From a virus, in the IMG/VR virus record IMGVR_UViG_3300025131_000257, positions 1-30,856 of that record: 30,856 nucleotides of DNA; one strand, 5' to 3'. The position numbers and the translations under genes were made by a program. Shown here piece after piece: positions 4,559 to 24,861 of this stretch (position 1 is the stretch's first letter; each line of letters starts with the position of its first letter). A model generated the notes under the pieces. The model saw only the letters and a list, made by a program, of their open reading frames with translations, was not told where the DNA came from and ran no database searches.

Positions 4559-4852
4559 ATGTCAGAAGAAACAAAATTCACAGAAGAAGAACTTAAACAA
4601 GTTAAAGAAATTCAAGATAATTATTTTAACATTCAGAATCGATTTGGTCAAATAACTCTTGCAAAAATAAGACTTGAACAACAATTAGATGTTTTAGATA
4701 ATCAAGAAGAAGGATTACATAAAGAATTTAGTGATATTCAAGAAAAAGAGAAAACTTTTCTAAATGGTGTGACTGAAAAATATGGTGAAGGTTCTTTAAA
4801 TCCAGATACTGGTATTTTTACATCAAATAAATTAGAAAATAAATCAGAATAA
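4559..4852 (+). CDS. small coiled-coil protein upstream of sheath, 97 aa
   Basis: ATG is preceded by a strong GGAGG at 4548-4552. The 97-residue product is acidic and almost wholly helical, with heptad-like hydrophobic spacing from about residue 10 to 70 ('LKQVKEIQDNYFNIQNRF', 'LEQQLDVLDNQEEGLHKEF') followed by a short glycine-containing tail 'YGEGSLNPDTGIF'. It has its own late-type promoter motif just upstream and a second such motif downstream before the sheath gene, so it may form a one-gene unit. I recognise the general type (small coiled-coil proteins in T4-like phages near tail genes) but not a defined function. A chaperone or minor structural role is possible. Confidence 0.6.
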   Translation: MSEETKFTEEELKQVKEIQDNYFNIQNRFGQITLAKIRLEQQLDVLDNQEEGLHKEFSDIQEKEKTFLNGVTEKYGEGSLNPDTGIFTSNKLENKSE

Positions 4853-4955: not shown

Positions 4956-6803
4956 ATGGCCGAAAAAATTGTAAGTCCCGGCGTATTTACTAATGAAATA
5001 GACCAGACTTTTTTACCAGCTGCTATAGCAGACATAGGAGCAGCTCTCATTGGACCAACAGTCAAAGGTCCTGCTTTAATTCCAACAATCGTAACATCAT
5101 ACTCAGAATTTCAACAAATATTTGGAGATGTAATTAATACAGGTTCTCAATATCAATATTTAACATCACATGCAGCAGAACAATACTTGAAAAATTCAAA
5201 TACTCTAACAGTAGTCAGAATACTTGATGGAAGTTATAGTGGTGCAACCGCAGAAATTTCTGCTAGTGAATTTGAAACAGCTCTCTCATCAGCAACATCT
5301 ACAACACCTCTTGGTAATGCATTTAAACTTACCACTCTTGCAGATGGTTCAATAATGACCAATCGCGGTCATCCCGCAATTACTGATGCTACTACTACTT
5401 ATCAAGCTACAACGGGTTCAAACTTTGTTTTATTGAGTGGCTCAAAAGATAATGTAAGATGGGAAGTAACAAACAGAAATAAAAGTAAAGGTACATTTAC
5501 TCTTAATATTAGAAGAGGTGACGATTCAATAAAAAGAAAACAAGTATTAGAATCATACAGTAATATCAGTCTTGATCCAAATACAAATAATTATATTGGT
5601 AAAGTCATAGGTACTCAATATCAAAGTATATCTACTGATGAAAATAGTAAACCATTCTTAAAATTAAATGGTGATTATCCAAACAGATCTAAATATGTAA
5701 GAGTCAGTGATATTTTAGATACAGTAGATTATCTTGATGAAAATGGAAATATAAGAGTAACTAGTTCTGTAGATTATTTACCATCTATAGGAAGTGGTTC
5801 TGCTGCTGGTACATTCGGTGGTGGTTCAGATGGATATAGTGGATTTGACTCACTGGGTCATCAAAATGGTTCAAGTGGGGCGGTAGTAAACTTCTACGAA
5901 AATATTTCAGATACTAATACTCAAGGATTTAATCCAGACACAGCTGCTCAAGGACAATCTTCATATCAAGAGGCATTAGATTTACTTTCCAATCAAGATG
6001 AGTACGATATTAATTTAATACTTGCACCCGGAATAATTGGATCTGTACACACTAATATAACATCTAAAATTATAGATGTCTGTGAAGATAGAGGTGATTG
6101 TTTTGCAATAATTGATCCAGTATTATATGGTAAAAATGTAATTGATGCAACATCACAAGCAGAAACAAGAGATTCAAATTATGCTGGTATGTATTGGCCT
6201 TGGATTAAAATACCAGATAGTCAATTAGGAACTCAAAGATGGGTGCCACCATCAGTAGTTCTTGGTGGAATCTACGCATTTAACGATAAAGTGGCTCATC
6301 CATGGTTTGCACCTGCTGGTTTAAATCGTGGTGGAATTGATGTAGCTATTCAAGCAGAAAGAAAATTAACTCAAGCAGATAGAGATACTCTATATGACAG
6401 TAATGTTAATCCAATCGCAACATTCCCTGGCCAGGGTGTGACAGTATTTGGACAAAAAACATTACAGAAAAAGGCATCAGCACTTGATAGGATTAATGTA
6501 AGACGATTACTTATTAAAGTTAAGAAGTTTATCGCTGCTTCTTCAAGATTCCTTGTATTTGAACAAAATACTTCGGCAACACGAAGGAGATTCTTAGGAA
6601 TTGTAAATCCGTTCTTGGAACAAGTTCAATCACAAAGTGGATTGAATGCTTTTAGAGTAGTTATGGATGAAACAAACAATACACCAGATACAATTGATAG
6701 AAATCAATTAATTGGACAATTATTTTTACAACCAACAAGAACCGCTGAGTTTATTGTATTGGATTTTACAATACAACCAACTGGTGCTTCATTTCCTGAA
6801 TAG
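4956..6803 (+). CDS. 18: tail sheath protein, copy 1 (gp18-like)
   Basis: 615 residues; T4 gp18 is about 659. Sheath subunits polymerise around the tail tube and contract on infection. Family features are the N-terminal 'SPGVFTNEID' start, 'IADIGAALIGPTVKGPALIPT', the conserved C-terminal core with 'YWPWIKIPD', 'RWVPPSVVLGGIYAFNDKVAHPWFAPAG', 'TLYDSNVNPIATFPGQG', 'VFGQKTL', and the terminal 'PTRTAEFIVLDFTIQPTGASF' strand that exchanges between subunits. A Gly/Ser-rich loop lies near residues 275-310. It is preceded by a late-type promoter and a good GGAG site and followed by a strong hairpin terminator. It is clearly paralogous to the next gene along its entire length, apart from an insertion in the second copy. 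Confidence 0.93.
   Translation: MAEKIVSPGVFTNEIDQTFLPAAIADIGAALIGPTVKGPALIPTIVTSYSEFQQIFGDVINTGSQYQYLTSHAAEQYLKNSNTLTVVRILDGSYSGATAEISASEFETALSSATSTTPLGNAFKLTTLADGSIMTNRGHPAITDATTTYQATTGSNFVLLSGSKDNVRWEVTNRNKSKGTFTLNIRRGDDSIKRKQVLESYSNISLDPNTNNYIGKVIGTQYQSISTDENSKPFLKLNGDYPNRSKYVRVSDILDTVDYLDENGNIRVTSSVDYLPSIGSGSAAGTFGGGSDGYSGFDSLGHQNGSSGAVVNFYENISDTNTQGFNPDTAAQGQSSYQEALDLLSNQDEYDINLILAPGIIGSVHTNITSKIIDVCEDRGDCFAIIDPVLYGKNVIDATSQAETRDSNYAGMYWPWIKIPDSQLGTQRWVPPSVVLGGIYAFNDKVAHPWFAPAGLNRGGIDVAIQAERKLTQADRDTLYDSNVNPIATFPGQGVTVFGQKTLQKKASALDRINVRRLLIKVKKFIAASSRFLVFEQNTSATRRRFLGIVNPFLEQVQSQSGLNAFRVVMDETNNTPDTIDRNQLIGQLFLQPTRTAEFIVLDFTIQPTGASFPE
6594..6631 (+). repeat. 38-nt direct repeat shared by the two sheath genes (copy at 9017-9054)
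   Basis: These 38 bases are identical at 9017-9054, encoding the LGIVNPFLEQVQS stretch in both sheath copies. Neighbouring stretches of the 3' halves (about 6350-6800 and 8770-9220) are also close at the nucleotide level, while the middles of the genes are not. This fits a tandem gene duplication with later gene conversion or strong constraint at the 3' end, and offers a substrate for recombination. Confidence 0.85.
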
Positions 6804-6865: not shown

Positions 6866-9226
6866 ATGGCAAAAAAAATAGTAAGTCCTGGTGTATTTAC
6901 TAATGAAATAGATCAAAGTTTTTTACCCGCGGCGATTGCAGATATAGGAGCTGTAGTCATTGGACCAACAGCTAAAGGTCCTGCTTTAATTCCAACAACT
7001 GTGACATCATATTCTGACTTTCAAAGAAAATTTGGTGACACATTTAAGAGTGGTAGTAGTTATTATCAATATTTAACATCACACACAGCAGAACAATATT
7101 TAAAACATAGTGATAAATTAACTGTAGTTAGAATTTTAGCTGGAAGTTATAGTGGTGCGACTGCTACTATTTCATCATCAATTGATCCAGCTATAGTTGG
7201 AACAGGAATTGGAGGTGTTAAAGCTTATGGTGAGATTAAGTTTAATAACTCAACTGCAATTGCAAGTTCTAGTGCAACTATAAGTCAACTAACTGCATCA
7301 ATGATAAATGAAAATGGTACTAAAATTGATTTTGTTTTTACAGGTTCTGTTGGATTATCAAATCATAGTACAGCTCAATCTTCAACACTCATATATGTTA
7401 ATACTGGAAGTGTAACACATACATCACCTAGTTCATCAGCTGATCCTAATATTGCTCAATCATGGGCAGAGGTTATAAACAATAGTTCATCATTACATGG
7501 TATACCAATAAGTGCTAGTGCATATTTAGTGGGAACAGCTCAACATGATATTTATGGTGTACTTCAAATTACTTCAAGTAAAATTGGGAATCATGCAGGT
7601 GAATCTGTTATTGGTGGATCAAGAATACTTGGGACAAGTACTAACTTAAGTGCATCTTTATTATTTACAACGGCAAGTTTCATGTCTGCTAGTGGTCACG
7701 CTGGATCTAATTTTTCAGGAACTCAGCGTGGAGCACTTGCAAATGAAACCACTTTACATTTAAATAATGGTCAAAATCCTTCTTTTAAAACTCCATTTAA
7801 ATTACATACTTTGGCAGATGGTAAAATTATGAATAGTACTGGACCAATTGATTCAAATAGTTTACTTAAATCTGGTTCGAAAGATAATCTAAGATATGAG
7901 ATATCTACCTTTAACAAAAGTAAAGGTTCATTTACCTTAACAATTAGAAGTGGTGATGATATTGAAGATAGAAAACAAATACTTGAAACATTTACAAATG
8001 TGGATTTGGATCCAAACTCAAAAAATTATATTGCAAAATCTATTGGTGATCAATATAATTCTATAAAAACTGATGAAAATAGTAACCCATTCTTACAATT
8101 AGTTGGTGATTATCCAAACAAATCTAAATATGTAAGAGTTGAAGTAATAGAAAAAACTATAAATTATATTGATGAAAATGGTGATATTAGAGTTGCAGAA
8201 ACTTCAGCATCACTTCCAATGTTTCATAGTGGTTCAAATAGTGGTTCTTTCGGTGGTTCATTTAGTGGTGGAACAGATGGAACTGTCCAACATCCTATAG
8301 GTGCTTTTACCTATGAGAATATATCAGAAAATAATTCTCAAGGATTGGATCCAAGTAATAATGGTGGAGCTAGTGGATATAATGAATATGTACAAGCTCT
8401 TGACTTATTATCTAATCAAGATGAATATGATGTAAATCTTATTTTAACACCTGGAATTATTGATAGTGTTCATACTGCAATATCCAAAAAAATTATGGAT
8501 GTCTGTCAAGATAGAGGTGATTGTTTTGCTTTAATTGATCCAGTAGAATATAATAAAAATGTTGGAGATGTAACAGAGAGAGCTGGAGCTAGAGATACAA
8601 GTTATGCAGCAATGTACTGGCCTTGGGTTAAAATACCAGATAATCAATTAGGAGTTCAACGATGGGTGCCACCATCTGTAGCTGTAGCTGGTGTATATGC
8701 TTTTAATGATAAAGTTACACATGCATGGTTTGCTCCGGCAGGTCTTAATAGAGGAACTATCAATGTAGCTAAACAGGCAGAAAGAAGATTAACTCAAGCA
8801 GATAGAGATACATTATACGATTCAAATGTTAATCCAATTGCTACTTTTCCTGGTCAAGGTGTAACAGTATTTGGTCAAAAGACTTTACAAAAGAAAGCAT
8901 CAGCACTCGATAGAGTTAATGTACGAAGGCTATTAATTAAAGTTAAGAAGTTTATTGCTTCATCATCAAGATTCTTAGTATTTGAACAAAACAATGCTGT
9001 AACACGTAGAAGGTTTTTAGGAATTGTAAATCCGTTCTTGGAACAAGTTCAATCTCAAAGTGGTTTAAGTGCATTCAGAGTTGTAATGGACGAAACAAAC
9101 AATACACCTGATCAAATTGATAGAAATCAGTTAGTTGGTCAGTTATTTTTACAACCAACAAGAACCGCCGAGTTTGTTGTATTGGATTTTACAATACAAC
9201 CAACAGGTGCTTCGTTTACTTCATAA
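6866..9226 (+). CDS. 18: tail sheath protein, copy 2, with extra domain (gp18-like)
   Basis: 786 residues. It aligns with sheath 1 from the start (SPGVFTNEIDQ, IADIGA, IGPT.KGPALIPT) to the C-terminal 'PTRTAEFVVLDFTIQPTGASF'. The difference is an additional segment of about 188 residues: FKL.TLADG lies at residue 123 in copy 1 but 311 here. The extra segment (residues about 104-305) is Ser/Thr/Ala/Asn-rich and beta-like ('INENGTKIDFVFTGS', 'YGVLQITSSKIGNHAG', 'LSASLLFTTASFMSASG'), as expected for a domain exposed on the outer surface of the tail. The ATG has a GGAG at 6855-6858. Followed by a terminator. Both copies keep the conserved C-terminal core, so both could assemble; whether they form mixed or alternative sheaths cannot be read from the sequence. 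Confidence 0.93.
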   Translation: MAKKIVSPGVFTNEIDQSFLPAAIADIGAVVIGPTAKGPALIPTTVTSYSDFQRKFGDTFKSGSSYYQYLTSHTAEQYLKHSDKLTVVRILAGSYSGATATISSSIDPAIVGTGIGGVKAYGEIKFNNSTAIASSSATISQLTASMINENGTKIDFVFTGSVGLSNHSTAQSSTLIYVNTGSVTHTSPSSSADPNIAQSWAEVINNSSSLHGIPISASAYLVGTAQHDIYGVLQITSSKIGNHAGESVIGGSRILGTSTNLSASLLFTTASFMSASGHAGSNFSGTQRGALANETTLHLNNGQNPSFKTPFKLHTLADGKIMNSTGPIDSNSLLKSGSKDNLRYEISTFNKSKGSFTLTIRSGDDIEDRKQILETFTNVDLDPNSKNYIAKSIGDQYNSIKTDENSNPFLQLVGDYPNKSKYVRVEVIEKTINYIDENGDIRVAETSASLPMFHSGSNSGSFGGSFSGGTDGTVQHPIGAFTYENISENNSQGLDPSNNGGASGYNEYVQALDLLSNQDEYDVNLILTPGIIDSVHTAISKKIMDVCQDRGDCFALIDPVEYNKNVGDVTERAGARDTSYAAMYWPWVKIPDNQLGVQRWVPPSVAVAGVYAFNDKVTHAWFAPAGLNRGTINVAKQAERRLTQADRDTLYDSNVNPIATFPGQGVTVFGQKTLQKKASALDRVNVRRLLIKVKKFIASSSRFLVFEQNNAVTRRRFLGIVNPFLEQVQSQSGLSAFRVVMDETNNTPDQIDRNQLVGQLFLQPTRTAEFVVLDFTIQPTGASFTS

Positions 9227-18763: not shown

Positions 18764-18776
18764 TATTAATATATGA
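18764..18776 (+). promoter_or_regulatory. divergent copy of the late-type motif overlapping the polymerase start
   Basis: TATTAATATATGA differs from the late-type motif at the centre (TTAATA for TTTATA) and contains the ATG of the next gene. With no Shine-Dalgarno sequence at normal distance, it may mark a leaderless start or be a chance AT-rich match. Confidence 0.25.
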
Positions 18777-20116
18777 TTTATATTGTGATACCCATATATT
18801 CAGACCCATTCTTACATCCATTACATAAGAATAACAAGTTATCTTTACTTTATGTTATGGAATGTGGTGATGAAAAAATTGATGATGATTTTAAAACAAA
18901 GAGTTATATCTTACCTCAATTACATCCAGATTCAAAGGAATATATGGTAGACTATTCCTTTTTAGAGGGTGATTGTCTTGTTGTCACACCTGATTCCAAA
19001 AAACTACAACCAATATTTCAAAATCATAGGAAAGTTCTTGATGTGAATATAGCTTATTGGTGGAAACATGGAAAACCTATGGACTTGGAAGTAAGGAATA
19101 ATGCAATAGATTTCTTGAGTAGTAAGTACTACAATGTTAAAAAACTCAACGAGATCATACCAATTTCGAAACATAAAGAGTATTGTGATGAGGTATCAGA
19201 AAGAATACTAAACTTCTTGAGAGAAGATTTAAATGAACTCATAAAAGATGAGGGGTGGTTTGATGGAGGTTCAACTGAAACTATTCAAGCTTTCCATGGT
19301 ATAGAAAAGAATGGTGTAAAAGTGTCAGACGATGTATGTGATATATTTGACATAAGAGTTAAGAAACATATATCAGATGGTAAACTATATAGTAATTACA
19401 ATCTAACCACAACAACAGGTCGTCCAAGTAATTCATTTGGTACAGTTAATTTTGCAGCTCTTCCACAAGAAAAACGAAAGGCCATTATTCCTGAAAATGA
19501 CTATCTTGTTGACTTTGATTTTGATGCTTATCATTTAAGATTAATTGGTAATTTAGTTGGATTTGATTTTAATAGTGGTAATTGGGGTGGTAAATCAGTA
19601 CACGAATACTTTGCATATAGATATAGTGATTTAGAAGGTAAAGAAATATCATATGATGAAGCTAAACAGAAAACATTCCAAATATTATATGGTGGTATTC
19701 GTGAAGAACATGAGAAAATATCAGCTTTTTTCCCAAAAACATTAGATTATATAAATAAAAAATGGAATGAAATAAATACTCATAATTGTGTTTTTACTAA
19801 TATTTATAGACGGAAACTTATATACAATAATTATCAAGATTTGAATAGAAATAAAATATTCAATTATTTGATACAAGCATATGAAACAGAATCTAATATT
19901 AAGAAGATTTTATTAATTCAAGACTATTTATTAAATAAGAACACAAAATTGATATTATATGGATATGATAGTTTCTTGTTCGACTTTTCTAAACAAGATG
20001 GAGTAGAAACTTTGAGAGAAATAAAATCAATTTTAGAAGAAGGAAATCATTATACTACTAAATCCAAAATGGGTTTAAATTATGGTGAAATGACAGATAT
20101 CACAACGAGGTTATAA
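18773..20116 (+). CDS. compact family A DNA polymerase
   Basis: 447 residues with all polymerase I-type palm and finger motifs in order. These are 'TTTTGRPSN..GTVNFAALP' (215-231; TGRxSS...NLQNIP in Pol I), motif A 'VDFDFDAYHLRLIGNLVG' (247-264, catalytic Asp D248 or D250), motif B 'YDEAKQKTFQILYGG' (294-308), 'RNKIFNYLIQAYETES' (359-374; R..N...Q.T in Pol I) and motif C 'GYDSFLFDF' (397-405), ending in 'KMGLNYGEMTD'. It would synthesise phage DNA. There is no clear 3'-5' exonuclease in the first 200 residues, and no 5' nuclease domain; the 5' nuclease is a separate gene at 26115. T4 itself uses a family B polymerase. There is no good ribosome binding site (AAGG is 14 nt from the ATG) and an in-frame stop lies 2 codons upstream, so the start is limited to 18773 or an internal codon. 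Only 2 nt separate its stop from the next gene. Confidence 0.85.
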   Translation: MIYIVIPIYSDPFLHPLHKNNKLSLLYVMECGDEKIDDDFKTKSYILPQLHPDSKEYMVDYSFLEGDCLVVTPDSKKLQPIFQNHRKVLDVNIAYWWKHGKPMDLEVRNNAIDFLSSKYYNVKKLNEIIPISKHKEYCDEVSERILNFLREDLNELIKDEGWFDGGSTETIQAFHGIEKNGVKVSDDVCDIFDIRVKKHISDGKLYSNYNLTTTTGRPSNSFGTVNFAALPQEKRKAIIPENDYLVDFDFDAYHLRLIGNLVGFDFNSGNWGGKSVHEYFAYRYSDLEGKEISYDEAKQKTFQILYGGIREEHEKISAFFPKTLDYINKKWNEINTHNCVFTNIYRRKLIYNNYQDLNRNKIFNYLIQAYETESNIKKILLIQDYLLNKNTKLILYGYDSFLFDFSKQDGVETLREIKSILEEGNHYTTKSKMGLNYGEMTDITTRL

Positions 20117-22392: not shown

Positions 22393-23199
22393 ATGTCAAA
22401 ACTAAACAAAAAAGATTCTAAAGTTACAGAATCAACTCAAAATACAGATGTAGTAGTTTCAGAAGAACAATCATCGCCATGGTATGTTTTTTGTTCAACG
22501 GGATGTGGTTTTTGTAAAAAAGCGGAACCAATTATTGAGGAACTTAATAAGGAAGGTTACAACATTTTAAAACTTGATGTAACTGAAGGTGATAATCAAA
22601 AGTTAAGTGAAGAACTTAAAAAAGAATATAATGTTCAATGTGGAACACCATGGTTTATAAATGCAGAAACTGGTAAAGGTGTATGTGGTTTTAGAGAAAA
22701 AGATGTTCTTGAAAAATGGTTAAATGGTGAAGATATACCAACTCCACCTAGACCAAAAGGTCCAATACCTAAACCACCATTTCATGGTGCTTCTAAAAAA
22801 GAAGAAAATACTTGGAAAAAAGAATATAAAAAATGGACTAAAGAAAATTCACATCTCCCAAAGATACAAACAGCTGAAGAAATTCTTACAAGACCAAGAC
22901 CGAAAACTCAACCACCCATGCCACCTCAACCAAATTCAACAGATGCACAATTTGAAGAGTGGGGTAAAACATGGGATGAATGGACTAAAGAAAATTCACA
23001 TTTACCTAACTTACAACCGGCGAGTGTTATTATAGAAAATTTCAAAAAAAGAGCATCTCAAGTACCACCAGGAGCACCAACACCACAATCAGGTCAACAA
23101 TTTCCTGTAAATGATACTAAAATTAACACTTTAGAAGCTAAAGTTACAGCTCTTGAAGTTAAAATTGATAAAATAATGAGTCATTTCGGAGTGAAGTGA
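22393..23199 (+). CDS. thioredoxin/glutaredoxin-fold protein with CGFC site and proline-rich repeats
   Basis: 268 residues. The redox domain covers about residues 28-110: 'WYVFCSTGCGFCKKAEPII' with the CGFC motif at 38-41, and a cis-proline turn 'CGTPWF' (P85), as in thioredoxin-fold oxidoreductases. It is followed by 'PTPPRPKGPIPKPPF' and a tandem repeat of about 45-49 residues (about 120-164 and 169-213), each ending in a near-identical 'WTKENSHLP.(I/L)Q' peptide (148-159 and 197-208). The C-terminus ('INTLEAKVTALEVKIDKIMSHF') is a coiled coil that could trimerise. There is no signal peptide. The fused Pro-rich region suggests docking to a partner or a virion-associated redox protein. It ends in GTGA, overlapping the GTG start of the next gene by 4 nt. 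Confidence 0.75.
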   Translation: MSKLNKKDSKVTESTQNTDVVVSEEQSSPWYVFCSTGCGFCKKAEPIIEELNKEGYNILKLDVTEGDNQKLSEELKKEYNVQCGTPWFINAETGKGVCGFREKDVLEKWLNGEDIPTPPRPKGPIPKPPFHGASKKEENTWKKEYKKWTKENSHLPKIQTAEEILTRPRPKTQPPMPPQPNSTDAQFEEWGKTWDEWTKENSHLPNLQPASVIIENFKKRASQVPPGAPTPQSGQQFPVNDTKINTLEAKVTALEVKIDKIMSHFGVK

Positions 23200-23618
23200 A
23201 ATTCAAATTTAAACCAACAATTTCAAAAGATAGAGAAGCTACCAAAGAAGAATTAGATTGTATTAAAGAAACTGAAGAGATGTTAAAGGAAGAAAAGAAA
23301 CTTCCACCAACATCTCAGATGGTTCGTAATATAGCTACAGATCACTGGCGTTCTCTAAAGGCATTTGTTAAAGGTAAACAAACAATTACAACACAAGAAG
23401 AAGCCGAACGAAGATGGGAAATCTGTAAAGTTTGTCCTCATCTTAAATACGATGAAACTAATCCAGACACAAATAAAAAAGATGGTAGATGTACACATTG
23501 TGGATGTTTTATGAATGTGAAAGTACATTATGCTATTGCTGAATGTCCTATAAATAAATGGAAAAAACATTGTGGTTGTAATTGTGATTGTGAACATGAT
23601 GGAGATTGTGATGAATAA
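23196..23618 (+). CDS. zinc-ribbon protein, Cys-rich C-terminus, 140 aa
   Basis: The start is GTG at 23196 (GTGA overlap with the previous stop), served by CGGAG at 23187-23191. The first 70 residues are charged and helical. Then comes a four-cysteine ribbon: C77-x2-C80 ... C99-x2-C102 with C104 and C117 ('EICKVCPHL', 'RCTHCGCFMNVKVHYAIAECPINKW'), a pattern found in small phage proteins annotated as DUF6171-like. The tail 'KKHCGCNCDCEHDGDCDE' adds five more cysteines and an acidic end. It most likely binds zinc. The extra cysteines could hold another metal or be redox-active, which would fit its position between two thioredoxin-type genes. It overlaps the thioredoxin ATG by 8 nt (ATGAATAA). 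Confidence 0.7.
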   Translation: MKFKFKPTISKDREATKEELDCIKETEEMLKEEKKLPPTSQMVRNIATDHWRSLKAFVKGKQTITTQEEAERRWEICKVCPHLKYDETNPDTNKKDGRCTHCGCFMNVKVHYAIAECPINKWKKHCGCNCDCEHDGDCDE

Positions 23619-23946
23619 TTTAACAAAATCAGAGTTTATGAACATCTATAATAAGGGAGAAAATCTTACAGATAAACCTATATTCATAGATTTTTATGCA
23701 ACTTGGTGAGGACCCTGTAAAATGTATGAGCAGGTGCTCAACGAAATCACACCAAGATATAAAGATAAGATAAACTTATACAAAGTGAATATTGAAGATG
23801 AACCTGAAATTGCAGGTTTATTTGGAGTGATGAGTGTTCCTAACACAACAACTATTTCAAAGAGTGGTGACACATTTTCAATGCCTGGAGCATTAAACGA
23901 GGCGACACTTGAATATTTCCTCGAAGGATTACTTAAAAAAAAATAA
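23611..23946 (+). CDS. trxA: candidate selenocysteine-containing thioredoxin (WUGPC, in-frame UGA)
   Basis: Translated through one UGA (23707-23709) this gives a full-length 111-residue thioredoxin. The start ATG (23611) overlaps the previous stop by 8 nt and has GGAG at 23601-23604, 6 nt upstream. The sequence is 'KPIFIDFYATW' (22-32), UGA at residue 33, then 'GPCKMYEQVLNEI', so the UGA replaces the first (nucleophilic) cysteine of WCGPCK. 'LYKVNIEDEPEIAGLFGVMSVP' supplies the cis-proline turn and 'GALNEATLEYFLEGLL' the last helix. Length and spacing match ordinary thioredoxins (about 105-110). No other in-frame stop occurs before TAA at 23944-23946. UGA serves as a normal stop in other genes here (23197, 28912), so the code is standard. 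A SECIS-like hairpin follows at 23727-23740. Selenocysteine fits; a nonsense mutation or read error is the alternative. Conventional gene calling would report only the fragment 23722-23946. Confidence 0.75.
23727..23740 (+). promoter_or_regulatory. candidate bacterial-type SECIS hairpin
   Basis: TGAGC (23727-23731) pairs with GCTCA (23736-23740), with loop AGGT (23732-23735) presenting GG. The loop starts 22 nt after the UGA, inside the 16-37 nt range accepted for bacterial SECIS elements, and a G lies in the first two loop bases, as SelB recognition requires. The E. coli fdhF loop also contains AGGU. The codons forming it (GAG CAG GTG CTC AAC, 23728-23742) all end in G or C, against the strong A/T bias of this genome. 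Confidence 0.65.
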
Positions 23947-23955
23947 AAAAAAGCG

Positions 23956-23985
23956 TTGACTTATATGGTCAAAAAGATATATATT
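23956..23985 (+). promoter_or_regulatory. sigma-70-like promoter upstream of the SSB gene
   Basis: TTGACT (23956-23961) and TATATT (23980-23985) are separated by 18 nt; an alternative -10 TATATA (23978-23983) gives 16 nt. It lacks the late-type motif, which suggests early or middle expression by host-type RNA polymerase. A leader of about 80 nt results. Confidence 0.6.
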
Positions 23986-24009
23986 ATAGTAATGTATAAA
24001 AATAGGTTA

Positions 24010-24072
24010 TATGGTTATAGAATTTAACCATAAATAATAAACGATAAACAATAAAACACAGGAGAAAACAGC
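24010..24072 (+). promoter_or_regulatory. SSB mRNA leader: hairpin plus A-rich region, possible autoregulatory operator
   Basis: TATGGTTA (24010-24017) pairs perfectly with TAACCATA (24025-24032) over a 7-nt loop. An unstructured A-rich stretch follows with AATAAACG/ATAAACAA/TAAAACAC-like 8-nt units, then the AGGAG ribosome binding site at 24060-24064. In T4, gp32 represses its own translation by binding cooperatively from a leader pseudoknot into an A/U-rich unstructured region. The layout here is analogous; no second stem for a pseudoknot was found. Confidence 0.4.
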
Positions 24073-24861
24073 ATGGATATAGATGCAATTAAATCTAAAC
24101 TAACTCAACTACAATCAACAACTTCAACAAAAGAAAACTTTTGGAAACCCGTACCGGGTAAACAAGTAGTTCGTATTGTTCCTTATAAACATAATAAAGA
24201 AAATCCTTTCATAGAATTATTCTTTCATTATAATTTGGGTAATAATAAAACTTATATGTCACCAGTTTCATTTGGTAGACCAGATCCAGTTGAAGAATTT
24301 TCCAATAAACTTAAATCTACTGGTAATAAAGACGAATGGATTCAAGGTAAAAGACTTGAACCTAAAATGAGAACTTTTGCACCTGTAATAGTTCGTGGTA
24401 AAGAATCTGAAGGTGTTAAATTCTGGGGATTCGGTAAGACTGTATATCAAGAATTACTTGGTGTAATTGCTGACCCTGACTATGGTGATATTACAGACCC
24501 AACAACAGGTCGTGATATTATGATTGAAAGACAAACACCTGCTGAAGCTGGTAATCAATATGGTAAAACTACTGTAAGAGTTAAACCTAATCAAATGCCG
24601 ATTACTGAAGACGCCGACTTATTACAAAAAGTATTTGATAACCAACCAAATCTAACTGAGTTATATACAGAACCAACTTATGATGAATTAAAAGAAGCTT
24701 TAAGTAATTTCTTGAATCCATCTGATGATAATACAGAAACCACTACTACAAGTAATGGTGTAGCTGCTAGTACAACTCCAACTACAAACACTGGAACTAC
24801 TACAACTACTACAAAAACATCAGATGTATCAGATGCATTTGACGATTTGTTCAATAACTAA
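24073..24861 (+). CDS. 32: single-stranded DNA-binding protein (gp32-like)
   Basis: 262 residues. It coats single-stranded DNA during replication, recombination and repair, working with UvsX and the helicase encoded downstream. Visible features are the N-terminal 'MDIDAIKSKLTQLQ' helix, 'FWKPVPGKQVVRIVPYKHNKENPFIELFFHYN' (the entry strand of the OB-fold core), 'FAPVIVRGKESEGVKFWGFGKTVYQEL', and a Thr-rich linker (about 219-250) leading to the acidic tip 'DVSDAFDDLFNN', the protein-interaction tail typical of SSBs. No cysteine occurs in the whole protein, so the zinc site of T4 gp32 is absent. It has its own sigma-70-like promoter and a structured leader. The gene is followed by a structured intergenic region. 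Confidence 0.85.
   Translation: MDIDAIKSKLTQLQSTTSTKENFWKPVPGKQVVRIVPYKHNKENPFIELFFHYNLGNNKTYMSPVSFGRPDPVEEFSNKLKSTGNKDEWIQGKRLEPKMRTFAPVIVRGKESEGVKFWGFGKTVYQELLGVIADPDYGDITDPTTGRDIMIERQTPAEAGNQYGKTTVRVKPNQMPITEDADLLQKVFDNQPNLTELYTEPTYDELKEALSNFLNPSDDNTETTTTSNGVAASTTPTTNTGTTTTTTKTSDVSDAFDDLFNN

Follow-up and report, generated by a model that had tools for sequence, protein, structure and literature searches.

A conserved in-frame UGA in the thioredoxin of a T4-like phage family very likely encodes an active-site selenocysteine

The window analyzed here is the whole 30,856-nucleotide stretch of IMG/VR virus record IMGVR_UViG_3300025131_000257, a 31-kb record that is possibly a fragment. It carries a thioredoxin gene containing one in-frame UGA, near genes for gp32, UvsX, an exonuclease and a helicase. 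The features at this locus are as follows.

22393..23199, + strand: further thioredoxin/glutaredoxin-like protein whose CGFC motif is an ordinary Cys site without UGA; conserved neighbor
23196..23618, + strand: Cys-rich small protein of unknown function (PHROG 13558); conserved upstream neighbor, overlapping the thioredoxin start by 8 bases
23601..23604, + strand: GGAG, the likely ribosome-binding site of the thioredoxin gene (from sequence), within the 3' end of the upstream gene
23611..23946, + strand: thioredoxin gene with one UGA read through, 111 residues (...FYATW-U-GPCKMYEQ...)
23707..23709, + strand: UGA codon at residue 33, the nucleophilic Cys position of WCGPC; selenocysteine (Sec) inferred
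23716..23718, + strand: TGT, the resolving Cys (residue 36), invariant in all homologues
23727..23740, + strand: SECIS-like hairpin UGAGC-AGGU-GCUCA, beginning 17 nt past the UGA
24073..24861, + strand: gp32-type single-strand DNA-binding protein; conserved downstream neighbor

The thioredoxin frame opens with ATG at 23611, runs 32 codons to TGA at 23707-23709, and continues through GPCKMYEQ... to TAA at 23944-23946, giving 111 residues when the UGA is taken as one residue. An earlier note, made from the sequence alone, had described this arrangement from the GGAG to the TAA, and all of it held. It had also claimed that gene callers truncate the thioredoxin to 74 residues, which held as well: translation table 11 lists only a 74-residue ORF (23722-23946) for this frame. 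The read-through protein matched Pfam Thioredoxin PF00085 (8.1e-19, residues 3-104, 68 bits against a curated cut-off of 23.5) and also matched PDB thioredoxins. An AlphaFold2 model, for which residue 33 was entered as Cys, had a mean pLDDT of 94.5 and a thioredoxin-type order of helices and strands. Against NCBIfam TIGR01068, the thioredoxin equivalog, the protein scored 77 bits, below the curated cut-off of 96.8, and it is therefore a divergent thioredoxin outside that equivalog. Across the family, W32, G34, P35, C36 and the cis-proline P77 are invariant, and the first Cys position of WCGPC is the UGA.

Elsewhere in the window, 4956-6803 and 6866-9226 encode tandem tail sheath-like proteins with long stretches in common; the comparison with PHROG tail sheath covered the second only. 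The 447-residue protein at 18773-20116 resembles a family A DNA polymerase by eye (VDFDFDAYHLRLIG); no Pfam or PHROG model matched it, and it is conserved in all syntenic relatives compared.

We then asked how the UGA fares in related phages. A protein search of IMG/VR returned a first set of relatives in which 13/13 had TGA at codon 33, with the frame open on both sides. Scanning IMG/VR for A-x-W-UGA-G-P-C-K/R, and removing chance matches and near copies, yielded 24 distinct phage genes, the window's included, all with UGA at codon 33 and intact frames, the genes being divergent and drawn from many samples. Median dN/dS was 0.34 over codons 2-32 and, with the hairpin block excluded, 0.36 in the part past the UGA. 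Because TGA recurs across these 24 genes, sequencing error is ruled out as its source. The dN/dS of about 0.35 before and after it excludes pseudogene decay and means that the 74-residue ORF cannot be the entire product. The criterion used for bacterial selenoproteins, an in-frame UGA that aligns with the Cys of homologues and is kept in relatives, is met. In the inspected part of a scan for further conserved in-frame UGA genes in seven syntenic phage contigs, we found the thioredoxin plus apparent shadow or antisense frames of known genes.

Three orthologues (L021, L022 and L024) have TGT at the position of the UGA codon. Their loci run in the order Cys-rich gene, thioredoxin, gp32 and UvsX (L022 stops within gp32), and the UGA versions in G000, G001, G008, G012, G014, G016 and G017 share this gene order as far as the contigs extend. 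The earlier note had proposed looking for homologues in which residue 33 is Cys or UGA, with both kinds intact, and this check was passed by the 24 UGA genes and the three syntenic Cys genes. TGA and TGT at one syntenic locus very probably represent Sec/Cys pairs, with Sec itself inferred. In a tree of 38 rows, the 24 phage UGA genes cluster with support of 83/89; L021 and L022 are adjacent and L024 lies outside. The tree places L188 and L141, both cellular Sec thioredoxins, far from the phage genes and requires two changes of the Sec/Cys label. On this placement, Cys phage thioredoxins seem to be the source of the phage Sec genes, rather than a cellular Sec gene acquired recently by transfer; the rooting and the order of changes are inferred. 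The Cys thioredoxin at L021:6067-6387 (site WCAPC, TGT) retains a perfect SECIS-like stem, UCAAGC-AGGU-GCUUGA. Remnant SECIS elements are known in Cys genes descended from Sec genes (PMC1794560), and L021 probably reflects a recent change from Sec to Cys, its hairpin looking like such a remnant. In Microcystis phage Mel-JY01, the closest phage with a name (46-52% in three replication proteins), no thioredoxin stands directly upstream of gp32.

The strongest additional evidence is the hairpin behind the UGA, which the earlier note had missed. Its loop (23732-23735) starts 22 nt past the UGA, and a stem with this spacing is present in 23 of the 24 UGA genes, the exception (L111) having one mismatch in the usual stem. 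Many of the genes carry the form UUGAGC-AGGU-GCUCAA; the hairpin is UCGGGC-AGGU-GCUCGA in L104 and GAGC-GGUC-GCUC in L117. In the clade of L119, L113, L095 and L105, an unrelated stem of 8-9 bp stands at the same position, with GUUUAGUA-GUG-UACUAGAC in three of the four, and the protein at the hairpin block reads FSSVLD or FSSILD as against FEQVLN. Published rules for bacterial SECIS elements call for a loop of 3-9 nt, a stem of 4-16 bp, a G in the first two loop positions and a distance of 16-37 nt from the UGA (PMC13188914). With loops of 4 nt (3 in one clade), stems of 4-9 bp and a G within the first two loop positions, the family hairpins meet the rules for loop, stem, G and spacing. For the further rule of a minimum free energy of -7.5 kcal/mol or lower, the window gives -7.4 over 45 nt, and the family ranges from about -6 to -12.5 over the same stretch. 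The energy of the window's hairpin is ordinary (z -0.26), and a 58-nt fold of the window favors an alternative pairing that takes in the UGA.

Codon choice in the hairpin block is distinctive. Codons 40-43 are GAG CAG GTG CTC in most UGA genes, where the window usually has GAA, CAA, GTT/GTA and TTA, and in these AT-rich genes GC3 is 0.82 in the block versus 0.14 in the remainder. When we resampled synonymous codons at the frequencies of the window, with the protein unchanged, hairpins of this quality were expected in 0.6 of 24 genes and were seen in 22 of 24; the cut-off was chosen with the data in view and the genes are related, so we attach no formal probability to this result. For 22 of the 24 genes, an untuned hairpin score gave individual p values between about 0.001 and 0.08. 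Of nine Cys phage thioredoxins tested, eight lack the hairpin and L021 alone has one; two of the three syntenic Cys orthologues are without it. Strict covariation is weak, with both partners altered in one of six pairs, since the stem hardly varies or, in one clade, sits in a different register. A search of 23400-24100 against Rfam returned chance matches only. The case for a SECIS is built on where the hairpin lies, on the choice of codons and on its replacement in one clade by an unrelated stem, not on energy or covariation.

One relative also carries part of the decoding apparatus, evidence beyond what the earlier note could have known. The 113-kb contig G014 is syntenic with the window (UvsX 90% identical) and has the UGA thioredoxin at 35091-35420 and a tRNA-Sec gene at 103633-103727, with a UCA anticodon, a long extra arm and an encoded CCA. 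This gene scored 69.4 bits against RF01852 (gathering cut-off 47) and was called tRNA-SeC by ARAGORN, which found only a tRNA-Arg and a tmRNA as other RNA genes of the contig. No tRNA-Sec above the cut-off was found in the other family fragments, leaving G014 as the one record with it; a weak match in G005 is a tRNA-Met according to ARAGORN. Contigs covering the gene that neighbors the G014 tRNA-Sec have no tRNA-Sec there, and they show no thioredoxin near this family, so the association of tRNA-Sec with the Sec gene cannot be judged from them. SelA, SelB and SelD were found in none of the 12 virus records searched, the window included, most of which are fragments. Since none was found there, these proteins would be supplied by the host, which is unknown, and a Sec-decoding host has not been shown. 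We searched for a host by tRNA-Sec similarity in 12 cellular genomes with UGA thioredoxin-like genes and obtained short matches only.

Other RNA genes were recorded in passing. The tmRNA of G014 (G014:C1:91967-92387, equal to L267:11967-12387) has the tag GNEYQYMAVA and directly follows the tRNA-Arg, and tmRNA genes also occur in L393 and L392. Among IMG/VR loci L271-L346, ARAGORN called tRNA-Sec in 44 of 80 viral-contig loci, several of them in large contigs, grouped with 7-22 further tRNAs, and some at the ends of contigs. The contig-end cases are what would be expected for prophages integrated in selC, which is a possibility.

Taken together, the intact frame, the conservation of the UGA, the Sec/Cys exchange, purifying selection on both sides, the hairpin and the tRNA-Sec of a syntenic phage form the basis of the Sec reading. 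Four other explanations can be put forward. In the first, the phage or its host uses a variant code in which UGA means Trp, Gly or Cys, with no selenium involved. UGA is indeed rare as a stop in the window (TAA 18, TAG 3 and UGA 1 in the 22 genes counted), and the earlier note's claim that it serves as a normal stop elsewhere has few cases behind it in the window. Even so, the gene at 22393-23199 is still terminated by UGA. The aligned residue of the orthologues is Cys, and Trp or Gly would remove an active site that is otherwise invariant. A general reassignment needs no conserved hairpin behind this single UGA, and the syntenic phage has tRNA-Sec, not tRNA-Trp(UCA). Beyond shadow frames, in-frame UGA at conserved Trp, Gly or Cys codons was not recognized in the inspected part of the scan of the window. 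We consider a variant code very unlikely.

The second alternative, also very unlikely, is a switch in which a near-cognate tRNA reads through the UGA at a low level, inserting Trp or Cys and leaving the product mostly truncated. A hairpin 3' of a stop codon can boost read-through, which speaks for this idea. Against it, the hairpin fits the form and spacing of a bacterial SECIS, the residue placed first in the active site would in most cases be incorrect, and Cys orthologues occupy the same locus. A third possibility, all but excluded, is that the UGA is a true stop after a 32-residue peptide and that the product is the 74-residue ORF from 23722. The table 11 ORF does exist, but the stretch upstream of the UGA shows thioredoxin homology and purifying selection, neither active-site residue lies in the 74-residue part, and the Cys orthologues are single unbroken proteins. 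Finally, an error of sequencing or assembly, or a pseudogene in decay, has nothing in its favor but the in-frame stop itself and is all but excluded by the recurrence and selection described above.

We conclude that the thioredoxin of this T4-like phage family very likely has Sec as its attacking residue, in W-Sec-G-P-C. The WUGPC reading of the earlier note is thus supported; Sec insertion, the use of host SelA, SelB and SelD, and the redox target remain inferred, as there is no selenium or peptide evidence. In the proposed mechanism, a ribosome would arrive at the UGA of codon 33, and the hairpin at 23727-23740 would act as a bacterial SECIS, binding host SelB that carries Sec-tRNA-Sec. The UGA would then be decoded as Sec rather than as a stop. 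The predicted 111-residue product would be a cytosolic thioredoxin, probably faster or more oxidation-resistant than the Cys form; Sec at an attacking position usually brings faster exchange and better recovery from oxidation. It may keep disulfide targets of the host or phage reduced during infection, possible candidates being ribonucleotide reductase and oxidized phage or host proteins. In a bolder version, which could as easily be wrong as right, a T4-like phage lineage gained Sec in its own Cys thioredoxin, retains Sec and SECIS together in members as little as about 50% identical in protein, returns to Cys in some cases, and in part has a tRNA-Sec of its own that would raise Sec decoding in infected cells.

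Several known systems resemble this one. Cellular Sec thioredoxins (UxxC, PF00085; Geobacter, Carboxydothermus, Treponema; PMC1794560, PMC13188914) likewise place Sec first in the active site and have a SECIS in the coding region past the UGA, but the phage genes are nearest to Cys phage thioredoxins, with the cellular genes falling outside. The Cys phage thioredoxins (phrog_22, IMG/VR loci L021-L031) share the fold and are related in sequence, and three of them occupy the syntenic locus within this phage group; they differ in having TGT/TGC for UGA and, mostly, in missing the hairpin. Basilisk-like Bacillus phages (PMC6145125) have, like G014, a tRNA-Sec gene in a phage genome, reported there as the first in phages; that paper names no phage selenoprotein in the section bearing on it, whereas G014 combines tRNA-Sec and a Sec gene with SECIS in one phage genome. 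Poxvirus glutathione peroxidase is a virus-encoded selenoprotein, and in this it is alike, but it belongs to an animal virus, has its SECIS in the 3'-UTR and is another enzyme. The SECIS of E. coli fdhF has a GGUC-type loop. The phage hairpins share with it GG(U) in a 4-nt loop and a short stem about 20 nt past the UGA, and the L117 loop is GGUC; they show no sign of a bulged U and are otherwise unlike in sequence.

Outside the family, L116 (IMGVR_UViG_3300030104_005320, 115.9 kb), a contig not confirmed as phage, has a second, unrelated UGA thioredoxin-like gene (UGA at 4789) with a lipoprotein-like start and the site ATWUGPCKK; its hairpin, UGAAAC-AGUU-GUUUCA, again has a spacing of 22 nt. 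Loci L123-L239 of the genome_contigs set include, among chance matches, many cellular UGA thioredoxin-fold genes with the same pattern (Planctomycetota, Melainabacteria, Verrucomicrobia, Marinimicrobia and others).

In the open-access literature searched, which left out most subscription papers and all preprints, we found no phage selenoproteins, and the words phage, virus and viral are absent from a 2026 review of prokaryotic selenoproteomes. Cellular Sec thioredoxins were already known; within that literature, a phage family of them, one with a phage tRNA-Sec, is likely to be new. If the reading is true, this would be, in the literature searched, the first clear case of a selenoprotein family with SECIS encoded by phages, and a class of viral genes is being truncated by gene callers with loss of the active site. 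These phages would be bound to hosts that decode Sec and have access to selenium, unless Cys-like termination is tolerated, and phage tRNA-Sec genes would gain a purpose. The family would also provide a locus where Cys and Sec naturally replace each other, useful for asking why Sec is chosen.
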